A stretch of 64,000 nt of DNA. Source: Chaetoceros tenuissimus. Taxonomy: Eukaryota; Bacillariophyta; Thalassiosirophyceae; Chaetocerotales; Chaetocerotaceae. The position numbers and the translations under genes are program-made. Location: contig BLLK01000045.1 in the NCBI GenBank assembly GCA_021927905.1, positions 2,294,001 to 2,358,000 on the forward strand. The letters are read 5' to 3'. A model generated the notes under the pieces. It made no database searches. It worked only from the letters and a program-made list of their open reading frames with translations, and was not told the origin of the DNA. Shown here one piece after another: positions 24,528 through 32,200 of the stretch; positions within the stretch are counted from its first letter, which is position 1, and every line of letters begins with the position of its first letter.

Positions 24528-26348
24528 ATGGAACATGATGTCAATGAATTCTTTATTTCTGTGTACCTTGGTAACATGGATGATGTGAAAGCTATGCTCT
24601 CCGTCAATCATCGTTTGGTTGCTGAGAAGTCAGACGAGGGGAACGCATTAAATATTGCAGCTTGTCAGGGCGATTATGGTATGGGAAGACTGCTAATCGA
24701 GTTTGATTCACCCATTGTCAAGAACCAAGAAGGGCTCAATCCGATGGGTATATGTAAATATCGATCCAACAAGGAATTCTTTCAATTATTGTCTGATCAC
24801 TATGAATTCGATATTTCAGAAAGGCAATATAAAAGACGAAACTTTGAATCGATAATTTCACAAGAAAGGTGTCGCGAATTGAAAAGACAAGAACGGTAAG
24901 TAATGTATCCAGTTGCAAGTATTAGTATAGCTGTGTATACCAGTATGAAGTTTCTCATTATAATTTTCCACATTGGTAGGATCGCTAAGAGAATACAACA
25001 TTGGCAGCATCGAAAAAAGTTTGAGGCCGCAACAAGTATTCAATCAGCTGTACGGAAGATGCTGTTGGAAAATTCTAGGAAAAGGATTGTTTTGTTACAC
25101 TATTCTGCTACAATCATCCAAAAATCTTGGAGGTGGAGATTTCGTGATAGGATCTTTCGACAGAGGCAAAGATGCGCACGAAAGATTCAGTCATTTCAGA
25201 GAATGCTTGTAGTTAGGAATAAATTCATTGCTTTTGAATATCAACGACTATGGTATTATAGAGCACTAAGAATCTTAGCAGTTATCATCCAGAGACTCTG
25301 GCGTGGAAAAAAGGGAAGAGCACTGGCAAGAAAACAAAGGGAAATGATGTATCTACCAGACCCCTCATTGGCTGTAAATTTTGATTGGTGGTTGCAATGT
25401 CAAAAGGGTAGAACTTGGAACGCATTTTCTGAATATGTTTTGTCTGGACATCCAACGTCTTGGAAAGAAAGAAATCTTGTCAAAAGACAGTCTATTTACT
25501 ACAGAGATGTTCGATTCTACGTTAATAATGTGACGTTGAAGTCGTCTTGGGAGCAGCCCACGATTTGGAAAGACCTTGATGAGAGAAAACAAAATGAGAG
25601 GATCTCTTTACAAAAGGTTGGATTCACAATGAAGCAAGATAAGGCTTCTAGAAAGATTCAAACTTTTATCCGGTGCAGACGTTCCCGCCATCATTTCCAA
25701 TCAATTATGAAAGTGAATTTCATCATGTCGAATGCCTTGGAACAATATCAAATGAATCCAAATAATATAATTGCCCTGTGCAATTACACATTTTACGTGC
25801 ACGCTGCTCTTTGTGACGAGGAAAAGGCATCCACATTGTACAATCTATGTCTTCAACGAATGGCTTCCCGAGATCATCCCTTCATACTATTCAATTACAG
25901 CATATTTCTAGCAGCTCAATCACTGCAATATTCTTCATTCCTAGAAAGAGCGAAAGAAGCAGAGGCAAGACGATTTGCAAAGAAAGGAAGAGTAAAGTCC
26001 TCAATGGTCCTTGCTGATGCATTCTACCGCTATTATGCAATCAATTCGAATACAGCGAATAGTTGGCATAACTATGCATTGTCACGAGCGCTGGTATTTA
26101 CTGACTTTGCGAGGGCCTCAAAAGCATTCCACAATAGCAGATTTAGAACAAATCCTAGTCTATGTTATTTGAAATCCTTGATCGAGCTTGTTCACTCCCA
26201 TGCCGCTTCTGCTATTGAAACTTACAAGGCTTGGAGCTTGGAAGCTATTAAGTGGAAAAACCTGCATCAACATTTTCACAGTCGGATCAGTTCGGGATCG
26301 TATTTGATACAATCTATCTTTAATCTTTTGCATGTTGGCAAAAGATGA
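24528..26348 (+). CDS. IQ-motif and TPR-like repeat protein with ankyrin-like N-terminus
   Basis: Exons are 24528-24895 and 24980-26348 (intron 84 bp), giving 578 aa. Residues 1-80 look like one or two ankyrin-type repeats (GNALNIAACQGDYGMGRLLIEF). At least five IQ motifs follow (TSIQSAVRKMLLENSRKR, TIIQKSWRWRFRDR, RKIQSFQRMLVVRNKF, VIIQRLWRGKKGRALARK, RKIQTFIRCRRSRHHF), which bind calmodulin or related EF-hand proteins. A WW-like segment (LKSSWEQPTIW) lies between the fourth and fifth. The C-terminal 200 residues form half-TPR-like helical repeats (NPNNIIALCNYTFYVHAAL, HPFILFNYSIFLAA). I know no named family with this order. The shared promoter with CFAP58 and the IQ content suggest, but do not show, a flagellar calcium-signalling role. 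Confidence 0.8.
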
Positions 26349-26494: not shown

Positions 26495-28985
26495 TTACTT
26501 CTCTCTATTTCGTACAATCTCTTCGGCTCTTGCTTTTATATATTCATGCTCATCTTGAAAATTTACTCTGTACCTTCTTGGCCTTCCTTCTTGTAGTCTC
26601 TTTCGATTCAGCATTATTGCAAAGTCATCAAATGTCTTTGCTGCATCGCATTCAAGAGCAAATCTGCCGAGAATAATGTTCGTACCATTTATCTTGATTT
26701 GTGCCATATACTTATTTACGGATTTGTCAAAGGTAGTTCCATTAAATTTCTCATTTTCATTTCTGAAATTATGAACGGGGCATCGTTTTCTTTCGTCACA
26801 AAATTCATCAGAAAGTGTTCTTTCTGCATGGAAAAAAGTATCAAGTGGCTCGCCATAGTGACTTTTCTCTTTATCGGTCAGTCCTTGGGCTAATAAAGGT
26901 GGTATCTCTTGATTGGTCTGTTGTTGGGCTAATAAAGGTGGTATCTCTTGATTGGTCTGTTGTTGGGCTGGCAAAGGTGGTATCTCTTGATTGGTCTGTT
27001 GTTGGGCTGGCAAAGGTGGTATCTCTTGATTGGTCTGTTGTTGGGCTGGCAAAGGTGCAGATTGTATTGGGGGATAAGAAACCTGAGGTGGAAGTAACTC
27101 TTTCTTGTGATCATCCAGCTTTGCTCTCAATGAGAAAAGTGGAGATTCAGAGTATTCATGTCCATATCTATTTTTGTACCACTTAAGAAACTCCGGAGAA
27201 TCCTTTGGCATGGATGGTGAATTGGAATCGATCCACTCCTGGAACTTTTTCGAGTCCTTTGGCGAGCACTGCGGAAGAGACATGATGAGCTTCAAGTACC
27301 ACTCGCAGAACTTTTCAGAGTCTTTGAGTGGATGCTCCATGATCCACTTGATATACTCAGGAGAATTCATTGGTACACCCTGCGGAGCTGACTCTAGCCA
27401 ATTCAAGAACAGCTCACTATCCTTCATACACTGTGGAAGATTCTCTTTCCACTGTACATACTCTGGAGAATCTTTGTCCATACATTGCGGGAGAATTGCG
27501 CCAGCAGCCCAGAAACGAGTCGCAAGATTAAGTTCATCCTCTGTTGGCCAAATACTGATATATTCTTTCTTATCAGCCAGCCGAAAAAGAGCAATGTAGG
27601 TACGAAAGATCTGACGAATGTCCTCTTCTTTTGCAAATAGAGCAAGTAATTTGTGGGGATGACAGCAAGACTCGACAATCAACTTTGTTGCATCCTCTAG
27701 ATCCTTCCCTAGATCCTTTGCAAAATCCTTTGTCCATGCGCCATGCTTCACTATAAAGACTTCCTCTTTGCAAAGCTTAACCAATTCTTCAAAGGTTTCA
27801 AGAATGAGCTTCTCTGTGTCACGCCGAAATTTAGCATATTTCTCTGCACTTTCGAATTTTCTGCAGTCCTCTGGAAGCATCTGAAAGACCTTCTCAAATT
27901 CATCTGTAGCCGAAATATCCTTGAAGGCCTGAGCTTGCAACTTCACTGGATTGATGTCGAAAAGAAGCATATTGAAGTCTTCGAGAGTAAATTCTTCACT
28001 GAGTAATCTGTTCGCTTTCAAAATTAGCATAATTGTTTTTAAAAGCAAATTGATGGAAGCGGATTCAAAACAGTTTCCACCTTTATTGCTTTGCTCTAGC
28101 GAGGTCTTGATGATATTTAGTGTTGGAAAATGAAGCAAAATGATGATGAGAGCTTTCTCAAAGTCGACTTGAGTAACAAAGGAATGTACGATATTGTCCA
28201 TAATCGACAATTCTTTGTAAGTAGAGTCTTCTCCGTAATCGGCCATATACTGCTTATAGGAACCTGTGAGACTTGCGATATTCATGATTTGTTTCCTGAC
28301 ATGCTCAGATCCTGTTACTGGGTCCAGTTTTGAAATATCAAAAGCTTGCTTCAATTCTTGGAGTATTGTGGATGCATCTTGATAATCCTCATCCTTTGCG
28401 AGTTCAGCCCTTCTCGCCTTAGCTGCCTCTTTACTAGCAGCTTTCTTCTCAGAAGCTTCCCCTCCCTTTGGCTTTTTCTTGGTCCGGCTAGTGGTAGATT
28501 GCTTCTCTTTCCGCTTACTTTTCTTGCTACTTGAACTTGAAGCAGGACTGATAAATATGGAATTGTAAGTACTTGCGTATATTATAATTTTGATTGCAGA
28601 GCACGTAGGTACAGGTTACTTACATTGTCCCACCGGAGTAATCCTCATCGTTCTCATCAATTGCATTCTCATCCACTTGTTTGCGTTTGCTCCCTTTCTT
28701 GCCACCACCTCGAAGACGCAATACCAAATGAAGAGTGGACTCCTTCTGGATATTGTAGTCAGACAATGTATGTCCATCATCTAGCTGCTTTCTAGCAAAG
28801 ATAAGAATTTGCTGTTCGGAAGGAATTCCCTCCTTATCTTGAATCTTGGTCTTTACATTGTCAATGGTGTCAGATCCTTCGACGTCAAGAGTTATGATCC
28901 TTCCAGTAAGGGTCTTGACGAAGTTGGATCCAACGAATTCATCGGTCCTGAACTCTTTCAATACCTTCCGAAGGGAAAACAATCT
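26495..28985 (-). CDS. Ubiquitin-like head fused to W-repeats and an AP2/ERF-type domain
   Basis: Exon 2 is 26495-28547; exon 1 ends at 28624 (intron 76 bp, codon rebuilt as Ile). Exon 1 encodes a diverged ubiquitin fold from NFVKTLTG to LVLRLRGG, then GKKGSKRK. Relative to ubiquitin it keeps K6, K27, K29, K33, K48, K63 and the RGG end, but has K11R, R42I and G47R among about 15 changes. After a Lys-rich linker comes a helical region of unknown fold, then six repeats of pattern KDSxx[FY]xxW (27176-27493), four 13-residue Pro/Gln repeats (26885-27056) and an AP2-like domain near the C-terminus ([18 protein letters not shown] ... RRYRVNF). The 5' end is unresolved: no in-frame ATG precedes the ubiquitin fold, and the real initiation M-Q-I is replaced by G-S-N. 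An ATG at 29127 could be reached only through a weak donor. The Gly-Gly-Gly junction may be cut by deubiquitinases, releasing the AP2 part. Coordinates of the 5' edge are approximate. Confidence 0.75.
26885..27056 (-). repeat. 39-bp coding minisatellite, four copies plus a partial
   Basis: Perfect-length units start at 26885, 26924, 26963 and 27002, with a truncated fifth at 27041. Each encodes [13 protein letters not shown] or [13 protein letters not shown]. Units differ at only a few bases, so expansion is recent. The unit is a multiple of three, so copy-number change keeps the frame. Confidence 0.95.
27176..27493 (-). repeat. Six degenerate KDSxx[FY]xxW protein repeats
   Basis: Repeat cores read [45 protein letters not shown] and KDSPEFLKW, spaced 15-22 residues apart and often preceded by PQC or P-x-x-P. 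Divergence at DNA level shows they are old, unlike the neighbouring minisatellite. I know no named repeat family with this consensus. Confidence 0.8.
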
Positions 28986-29258
28986 TGAAGAATTATCCAA
29001 ATATGATATTTTGGAAATACAAAGACAGGAGATGCCCCTATGTATATAACAAAAGATGAATAAGATTGAATGTTCTTTTAATATAATGATTAGTTTGTAT
29101 CTGGAGAAAAGGTCCAAAAAAAGCCATAACTATTTTTTAAATTTTTTGACTACAGTAATTTCAATTTGATTTTTCCAGCAATCTTCTGCACTTTTTCAAT
29201 CTTTCGCAGCAAAATAATATTTTTCTTCTAGCAGTTCTTGAATAATACATTGCAAGCA

Positions 29259-32200
29259 ATGCTAGAAGAAAAAGTTGACGAATTGAGCCAAATCCGGAAA
29301 GAGTTGGAGAAGGGTTTATTCCTGTCAACAGATGAGGTAAATATAAATGGATTTAGTTGTTTTGATTTAGCGACGAAGGAAGAAATTGTGAGAGACTTGG
29401 GCCAACAGAAATATTCGCTAGTGATTGGAACGTCGTCAAGAATTCAAAGTGTCCCTCATGGTAACCATTGTAACCTTGATGAAATCTTTTTCGACTTTCA
29501 AGCATTTCACAAGTTGAAAAATGATAATAAAAGCGAGTGGATTGTAAAAGTAGGGACAGCAGAGTATAATCGATTAGAACAGCAACTACTTCAGACTATA
29601 CTTGCAGTGAATTATGAAATATCAGTTGCACGAGCTCGAGAGTTAGTAGAGCAAATTTTATCAGCAGCTGCGACTTGGGCTTCTCGTGAGAATCATATAG
29701 AAATTTCTTTGGCATTATCAAAGCACGTCCTTGGAGAAGTGGGAGATTCGAAATACATCTGTAAAGTTCATGAGGTGAAGCCCTCCCCAATTCTTATTGA
29801 ACTACAAGGGGACCAAGGGAATCGTTTCCTATCAACTGTCAGGTGAGTCAAACAAGTTGATAGAGAACATTACTTCATTCTACAACTAACACTAGCATAT
29901 CTATGAATGTCTTTTGTAGAGTCGATATTGAAAATAAAGAGAGTAACGACATTGTACTCAGTCTTTGCTTTGCTCTTGGTCAAGCTTTCAACATTGAAGA
30001 GGACAGTGTGAGCAACATTTTTTATGAATCTTGTCATAGCAATCAAAGCTCTGGTACAGATCAATGTTCATCCTTGACATCACAAATACTCTTCGACAAG
30101 AACCAGATTTCATCATTTGTAGTAGCAATGGAACCGAATTTAAGCACTGTTGGTAGCTTTAAAAAAGTATTTCATAGTATGAAGAGCTGCATGGTTCAAA
30201 ATAAAAAGAAAAAAAGCATTAGCGAAGCAATTCAATGCGCTGAATGGAACGGCATGAAACCCAACAAGTTACAATCTTCGCTGCTTATTTTGGGCAAAGA
30301 GTCCACCTGTGGTGCGATGGAAACGAAGAAAGTACTCTTTGAACCCATCACTGCGATGGAAATGGTAACTTCTGTCGAATGCGCTGGAGATCACATGCTG
30401 GCCTTAACTAATTTTGGTACAGTGTACTCCTGTGGAGACTCATCTCACGGTCAGCTTGGACATGGAACACTTGAATACTGCCGGGATCTTCGTTTGATTT
30501 CATATTTTCTAGAAGGTGACAACAAAGTCACCATTTCCCAGATTTCCACAGGATCACATATTCTTGGAAACCATTCAGTTGCAATTGATACAGATGGAAA
30601 GGTTTATACCTGGGGGAAATCTATTATTTGTGGTCAGCTTTCAAATGAAAACAGTAGAATCAAGTCCTATACTACAAAGCCTCGACAAATGGACAACTTC
30701 AAGGTATGTACCAGGAAATATCATTTGGGTATTTCCTTACATCAATCTAAACATGCTCTTCTTGTCAAGGACCACGCTCTCAAAGTATCCTGTGGATCTG
30801 GGTTCACTATTTTACTGGCATCAACAAAAGAATCCGAAAGTTGTGGGAGCACTGTTTATACTTTTGGTTTGCGTACGAATGGAAGACTCGGACAAGGCAA
30901 ATTGAACCATGAGAATGATCAACGTACCAAAAAGAAGAGAAATCAGGATACTTATACATGTGAATGGAAGCCAAAGATCGTTTCGACGCTGCTTGGTGAG
31001 GAAATAAAAGATATTTCTGCTGGGAAGGATCATTCCCTAGCTGTTTCGATGTCAGGGACTATCTGGGCATGGGGAAGTAATGCTTTTGGACAATGTGGTG
31101 TCAAACCTCTAGAGCAAAGTGAAATCCTTATAAATCACTTGAAGAATATGAATGAGAGATTTAATGGTATTCACGAACCAAATGATGTTTCTCTACAGAA
31201 TGACCTTTGGTCCCCGCACGAAGTACCTTTGCAGTCAAATACAATCAATCCTAGGTTTGTGTCTGTTTCTGCAGGTAGTATTCATAGCGCCGCTATTTGT
31301 TCAAATGGTAATCTCTATACTTGGGGCGGTGGCGGCAGCAACTACTGCCTTGGGCAAGGGAAAAGTCATATTAAGAACTATTGTTATGGTTTCGATAAGA
31401 AAAAAGATCTACAGCACAGAGAAATTCTCGGGATATGTGGTTATTTAGAACTGGAAGCCTGGTCTCATCCAACACAAATATTAGAGGGAGAAACAATTGC
31501 AAAAGTCTCTTTAGGCGATGGTAATGGAACTGCGTTGACAGAATCAGGATTATTTTATTGCTGGGGTAGTGGTGGTGCAAAAGAAGATTGCCAGCTTCCA
31601 AGCATCCCCAATGAGCTTCTTTGTAAACGTGTTTCTAATATGACCTCAGGAACAGGTGATCAAATAATGGCCATTTTGTCTGATGATTATCAAGCAAAGC
31701 ACATGGGATCGAAACTCTATAATGAAGTCATCGAGGTAAGAAAGTCTCTTATTCCAATTTATTTCATCATGTCCACCATTATTCAAATTCATACTTTCTT
31801 CCTAGGCAAAAAGACCAAAGGACCATAGTCTTGACTGTGCATTGATTGTAGAAGGCAAGCAGCTCTTTTGTCACAAAGTCATGATATCTCAGAGATCACC
31901 GGTTCTTTGTCAAATGCTGCAATCATTTCCAAAGCAAGGATTTACAAATTTGCTGATTTCTAGTATTGAATATGAAATCATGAAAATGGTCATTGAGTTT
32001 ATATATTTGGATGATATTCAAAACATTGACCTCTGCTCCTCAAGTGACTTGTATAAAGTCCACGAGACAGCAACAATATTCAAACTCACTCGACTCATTG
32101 TATTGTCTAGCAAACTTCTTCAAATTCCAGGGAAAGTAACTGATGGAGATTTATCTGAAAATCCCAATATTTCCACTTTTTCAGAAGATATGATTAAGGC

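Follow-up and report, generated by a model that had tools for sequence, protein, structure and literature searches.

The window analysed here is a stretch of 64,000 nucleotides (C32:2294001-2358000) of the Chaetoceros tenuissimus genome, and the genome searches covered 41,027,912 bases on 68 contigs. On the minus strand of the window lies a gene in which a diverged ubiquitin is followed in frame by a long body with an AP2-like tail. Its features, from 5' to 3' along the gene, are listed below.

28923-29129, minus strand: upstream stretch, open in the frame of the head, hydrophobic, no ATG (frame scan)
28620-29129, minus strand: open frame of exon 1, which holds the ubiquitin head
28704-28922, minus strand: diverged ubiquitin head, F4 to G76 (Pfam ubiquitin and comparison with the genome's own Ub-L40)
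28624-28703, minus strand: Lys-rich linker after the Gly-Gly, exon 1 part, 26 residues (translation)
28548-28623, minus strand: intron of 76 bases, GTAAGT...TTTATCAG, ending ATCAG (frame kept across)
26495-28547, minus strand: exon 2, all of the protein after the intron
28391-28546, minus strand: basic Ser/Lys-rich stretch, resembling a nuclear localization signal (translation)
27485-28396, minus strand: helical region, no family assigned (profile searches, AlphaFold model, constraint)
27179-27475, minus strand: six W-repeats (motif count in the translation)
26866-27057, minus strand: Pro/Gln minisatellite, 39 bases x 4.9 copies (repeat detection)
26549-26761, minus strand: AP2-like domain, putatively DNA-binding (phrog_99, paralogue tails, predicted model)
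26495-26497, minus strand: stop codon (translation)

Two plus-strand genes flank this gene. An IQ calmodulin-binding-motif protein (24900-26348; 25 bits against a cut-off of 20.3) ends about 146 bases from the ubiquitin-AP2 stop codon. On the other side an RCC1-repeat protein (29864-31828; Pfam RCC1-like domain, 1.7e-52) is transcribed away from the ubiquitin gene, and a frame from 29259 without clear family is probably its first exon. A near-palindrome of 54 bases (29220-29273, 78% self-complementary) lies around the first Met of this divergent gene.

Head, body and start of the window gene

From F4 of the head through the stop codon, 783 codons are intact. The head matched Pfam ubiquitin with an E-value of 1.9e-25 and 88.8 bits, above the curated cut-off of 25.4, and differs from the genome's Ub-L40 at 9 of 73 residues (K11R, T12I, P19G, P38S, D39E, R42I, G47R, E51D and R54H). 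L8, I44, K48, K63, V70, R72 and the LRLRGG end are unchanged, and unrelated sequence takes the place of Met1-Ile3. Behind the Gly-Gly the partner continues in the same frame, LRLRGG being followed by GKKGSKRK. Both this junction and the diverged ubiquitin with K11R, R42I and G47R had been described in a first-pass annotation of the window, and both are confirmed. The linker up to KQVDE is common to the window copy and two sister copies elsewhere in the genome, L019 and L020, and occurs in a variant form in two further copies, L021 and L026.

Splicing out the 76-base intron keeps the frame, and reading through into it leads to an immediate stop. Intron site and phase are identical, with small length differences, in the window copy, L019, L020 and the ubiquitin-free relative L022; the alignment also took in L021 and L026, which have other bodies. 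This layout suggests that the ubiquitin exon and the AP2-like exon are carried in one transcript.

The basic stretch at 28391-28546 may function as a nuclear signal, judging by its composition. The helical region found no convincing match in Pfam or NCBIfam (best E-values 0.15 and 0.21), and the PHROGs matches of the window protein were confined to the tail, with none in the helical body. An AlphaFold model of the body is mostly helical at low confidence (mean pLDDT 45). Against solved structures the best E-values were 0.12 for the window protein and 0.02 for a profile, both to a designed protein and both at the W-repeats. The six KDSxx[FY]xxW repeats announced previously come down to five strict ones, the sixth being MNSxxYxxW; in 2000 shuffles of the body the strict motif occurred 0.0005 times on average and once at most. 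The Pro/Gln minisatellite noted earlier was recovered as listed.

At the C-terminus an AP2/ERF-type domain had been proposed, of which a likeness to AP2 can be retained. Pfam AP2 gave no match in the window copy's own body or tail, but phrog_99, a phage HNH-endonuclease profile, matched residues 597-667 of the exon 2 translation (3.8e-5). The same stretch was matched by phrog_99 in all four paralogue tails (L019, L020, L022 and L023; 1.1e-5 to 1.2e-9), and over the same residues these tails gave weak Pfam AP2 matches, with E-values of 4e-4 to 0.04 and 14.6-21.0 bits, below the cut-off of 33.3. Genome-wide, none of the seven Pfam AP2 matches listed reaches that cut-off. The tail profile also matched L031 (hhalign probability 98), itself a sub-cut-off AP2 protein. 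The predicted tail model has the order strand-strand-strand-helix, with a pLDDT of about 60 there and a mean of 49 over the whole stretch. A Foldseek search with this low-confidence model returned plant AP2 domains, among them AtTEM1, AtERF1 and WRI1, as four of its five best PDB matches (best E-value 0.055), and the tail sequence profile searched against the PDB gave WRI1 at 0.39 and AtERF1 at 1.3-1.4, with an unrelated protein at 0.65 in between. Since the Pfam scores stay below the cut-off and the structure matches have weak E-values, we call the tail AP2-like only; by this likeness it would bind DNA.

In the window copy no ATG lies in the frame of the head as far upstream as the stop ending at 29130. 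A scan for an upstream exon (28600-29800, introns of 45-600 bases) gave 33 ATG/GT/AG combinations that join in frame, none of them with a GTRAG donor. The divergent gene has its first Met at 29259, some 340 bases away from the head, which leaves little space for such an exon. The frame upstream of the head contains no stop over 69 codons, and among 5000 mononucleotide shuffles 0.64% keep 205 bases of it open. DNA homology to the other head-bearing copies starts only at 28919-28922, within the first codons of the head. The sequence preceding the head gave no alignment with the sister copies, and the genome search yielded just a short inverted self-match and no further copy. In the window copy, then, the start may have been lost, the assembly may be faulty at this point, or translation may begin in an unusual way. 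We take it that this copy is probably 5'-truncated or mis-assembled at its 5' end, and that L019 and L020 are the better examples. The single spliced gene of the first-pass annotation thus holds for the intron, with its conserved site and phase, but is not confirmed as a complete gene, as the head lacks an ATG.

A family of ubiquitin heads on several bodies

At least 12 places in the genome were matched by the head, at least 18 by the body and at least 35 by Pfam ubiquitin. Five ubiquitin heads carry the Lys-rich linker, namely those of the window copy, L019, L020, L021 and L026, and these stand on three bodies. The AP2-like body, here body Y, is found in the window copy, L019 and L020. Body X of L021 has a distant likeness to Y (32% identity over residues 59-458), and body Z of L026 has no match to Y. 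A search of the L021 tail for an AP2-like domain gave a 16-residue match (probability 68) and no PHROGs hit. Compared with the window copy, L019 is 97% identical in the head and 94% in the body, and L020 is 74% and 93% identical, respectively (body residues 1-440). A head ATG is present in L019, L020 and L021. The architecture of ubiquitin plus AP2-like tail, first noted in the window, therefore recurs in two copies whose heads have an ATG, which rules out the window gene as a unique accident. It is not a ribosomal ubiquitin fusion either; those are L024 and L025.

Relatives of the bodies also exist without ubiquitin. L022 and L023, of which L023 is broken, are ubiquitin-free relatives of Y and begin with a short basic exon of their own, and L038 and the fragment L039 are ubiquitin-free relatives of Z. 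None of the four was among the at least 12, 13 and 35 places found by three ubiquitin searches. With a ubiquitin-containing query (at least 16 places), L038 was matched only by residues 147-536 and L039 only by residues 153-279, beyond the ubiquitin. The DNA of head and linker is alike to nearly the same point (GTGGATGA) and then diverges between bodies, and the cassette of L026 continues into sequence that surrounds the first in-frame Met of L039. These junctions suggest to us that the fused copies acquired ubiquitin; the alternative, a loss in the ubiquitin-free ones, seems less likely.

In viral contigs, 10 of 144 candidate stretches were confirmed as matching the heads, compared with 0 of 109 for body Y, and body Y was absent from all ten viral open frames that hold head matches. 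One viral contig (L044) carries a ubiquitin that ends in Gly-Gly and stands behind a signal-peptide-like leader.

Upstream of the head Met, the open frame of the head extends further in L020, L021 and L026. The extensions of L020 and L021 are long hydrophobic stretches with Kyte-Doolittle peaks of 1.9 and 2.5, and that of L026 has no peak above the threshold of 1.6. L019 and L021 share more than 1.4 kb of upstream DNA at 90%, and the hydrophobic frame shared by the two has a dN/dS of 0.52 (54 nonsynonymous and 29 synonymous changes). In L019 this frame is shifted against the head, so that translation there would begin at the Met of the head itself; the ubiquitin Met could also be the start in L020, L021 and L026.

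Some further ubiquitin-like sequences were seen in the genome. Four weak ubiquitin-like matches are clustered at C27:2334191-2337274 in frames of 324-344 residues. No high-scoring polyubiquitin array is evident among the 35 Pfam ubiquitin matches listed; such an array may be unassembled or unscored. L027 (C41:147385) is a ubiquitin-like protein behind an N-terminal hydrophobic leader, its open frame lacking a terminal Gly-Gly; it might be a plastid-targeted ubiquitin, which is a guess on our part.

Mosaic history and constraint

A tree of the head DNA (219 sites) sets the window copy, L019 and L021 apart from L020, L026 and the ribosomal-fusion ubiquitins, with 100/99 for this split and 81/85 for the grouping of L020 with L026. 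The tree speaks against one common origin for the five heads: two changes are needed, the branches with good support also require two, and in 0% of 200 bootstrap trees one change suffices. Since the heads do not form one clade, there may be two head types that share the linker, or later conversion. Head type A is found on bodies X and Y, whereas bodies Y and Z carry type B. That both types have the linker in common points to a connection between them, while the tree argues against one origin of the ubiquitin part.

Synonymous divergence is uneven along the gene. For the window copy against L019 the values are 0.06 in the helical body and 0.48 in the AP2 part; against L020 they are 0.10 for the body and 0.53 for the head. 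Such a pattern is to be expected if old copies underwent gene conversion or recombined with one another. In the stretches compared, DNA homology of the window copy to L019 and L020 reaches from the head start to a few bases beyond the stop codon and no further.

Changes in the body were counted over 363 codons (the basic part, the helical part and the first repeat), and a change was assigned to the window branch where L019 and L020 agree. On the window branch 9 changes are synonymous and 6 are nonsynonymous (P = 0.001 against neutrality), which indicates constraint on the body there. The counts are 9 and 10 for L020 (P = 0.008), and 1 and 2 for L019 (P = 0.5). All window-specific changes lie at residues 179-349 of the 363, which makes conversion from another copy possible, and the 9:6 count could partly come from gene conversion. 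In the head, the window branch has 2 synonymous and 0 nonsynonymous changes (P = 0.053), L019 has 3 and 2 (P = 0.083) and L021 has 6 and 6 (P = 0.037). The five heads differ from Ub-L40 by 8, 9, 11, 15 and 19 changes in 73 residues, with dN of 0.075-0.14, whereas the two ribosomal-fusion ubiquitins show no amino-acid difference over the 66 residues aligned. Therefore, constraint on the heads is weaker than on ubiquitin proper.

Constraint is also lower in the AP2 part than in the body, with dN/dS of 0.61-0.75 in pairs with the window copy or L022 and 1.5 between L019 and L020. The latter pair has 27 nonsynonymous and 5 synonymous differences, from which we claim no positive selection.

Proposed release at the Gly-Gly and comparison with known fusions

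R42 and R72 of ubiquitin help activation by E1, and deubiquitinases cut after G76. L73, G75-G76 and I44 are kept in all five heads, and R42 is altered in all five (to I, I, I, F and C); both ribosomal-fusion ubiquitins keep it. Further changes affect R72 (in L020 and L021), V70 (in L020 and L026) and R74 (in L026). In the window head, one residue of the conjugation set R42, I44 and R72 is therefore lost and two are kept. Retention of G75-G76 together with loss of R42 in all five heads would fit a detachable leader better than a conjugated tag. As the five heads are partly related, however, the retained glycines are not strong support for cleavage, and with V70 and residue 72 or 74 changed, ordinary deubiquitinase cleavage may be weakened in L020 and L026.

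Based on these observations, we propose a recombining ubiquitin-headed family from which a deubiquitinase would release an AP2-like regulator, the head being a disposable leader, and we give this proposal about an even chance. A 5' cassette, made of ubiquitin and the Lys-rich linker to near KQVDE and sometimes preceded by an in-frame hydrophobic segment, is found on three or more gene bodies; ubiquitin-free versions of two of these bodies exist as well, and one body ends in the AP2-like domain. The fusion would be translated as a single protein, and a cellular deubiquitinase would cut it after G76. The released body would start with Gly-Lys-Lys and carry two basic stretches resembling nuclear signals, and in this way the cut would free a basic AP2-like regulator that is targeted to the nucleus. 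The head would by now be a poor conjugation substrate. A further version, in which the shuffled cassette of hydrophobic leader, ubiquitin and basic linker makes membrane-held precursors and the deubiquitinase cut after Gly76 frees the nuclear AP2-like regulator from them, seems improbable to us; if true, ubiquitin would be the built-in site at which a transcription factor is released.

The head might instead stay uncut as a fixed ubiquitin-like domain and, like that of Rad23-type proteins, bring in ubiquitin receptors or the proteasome. I44, L8 and K48 of the window head are in place for such a role, the changes near the head tail in L020 and L026 (V70K/R, with R72N or R74Q) could block cleavage, and the open frame upstream of the head Met in L020, L021 and L026 points in the same direction. 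However, two of the five heads have lost V70 from the hydrophobic patch, and the G75-G76 present in all five leads into a Gly-Lys-Lys start resembling the one in Ub-S27a; we consider a fixed domain unlikely, with perhaps one chance in a few. Much harder to sustain is an artefact of the gene model, in which the ubiquitin and AP2 exons belong to separate transcripts and are spliceable in appearance only. The AP2 body could conceivably have a promoter of its own, as the ubiquitin-free L022 has its own short first exon here, but the GTAAG donor, the intron site and phase equal in four copies and the immediate stop on reading into the intron make this very improbable.

A different possibility concerns the window copy itself, which could be a dying duplicate whose head start was replaced by recombination and which makes no ubiquitin-AP2 protein, the function lying with the other copies. 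The missing head ATG, the want of a credible upstream exon, the homology that breaks off within the first codons, the upstream sequence of which no second copy was found and the closeness of the divergent gene's first Met all fit such a fate. On the other side stand the intact frame of 783 codons, the upstream frame, open over a length that few shuffles keep open, and the window branch, with its 0 nonsynonymous changes in the head and 9:6 in the body; raw-read evidence may also change the start. We hold decay of this copy to be as probable as its opposite. It is compatible with the released-leader proposal, and both can be true.

Fusions of ubiquitin to non-ribosomal proteins are already known as a kind. 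The first-pass annotation had named ribosomal partners only and none resembling a transcription factor, a view contradicted by the HMG-box fusion listed by Sibbald et al. (2019, PMC6332867). That paper gives 22 ubiquitin-fusion genes for Bigelowiella natans and 10 for Guillardia theta, with ubiquitin at the N-terminus, at the C-terminus or internal, and with actin, NiSOD, membrane, RING-finger and HMG-box proteins as partners; it also points out that such non-ribosomal fusions are easily overlooked in annotation. The term AP2 does not occur in its main text. Our literature search found no description of a ubiquitin-AP2 fusion, nor of similar ubiquitin heads on several bodies, and these two features are the part that we have not seen described. 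The system allows a simple test of whether a transcription regulator is released at the ubiquitin Gly-Gly, and a possible change of the head from conjugation signal to leader is open to direct study here.

The tail can be compared with two kinds of protein. Like AP2/ERF transcription factors, its low-confidence model has three strands plus a helix, but it lies below the Pfam cut-off and is a single C-terminal domain after the W-repeats. HNH-endonuclease profiles from phages match the AP2-like tails, and no nuclease match was seen. As for the head, Ub-S27a (eS31) and Ub-L40 likewise place ubiquitin directly before a basic partner, and the GGGKK of the diatom junction resembles the GGGKKRKKK of the genome's own Ub-S27a, whereas no ribosomal protein sequence follows the linker of the diatom heads. 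The algal fusions (PMC6332867) are similar in that ubiquitin stands in frame on unrelated partners, including DNA-binding ones, in algae with secondary plastids. Compared with the fusions in that paper, the diatom partner is AP2-like, and similar ubiquitin-linker heads stand on several bodies with ubiquitin-free relatives in the same genome; with fused and unfused relatives side by side and several head-body combinations, the birth of ubiquitin fusions can be studied directly.
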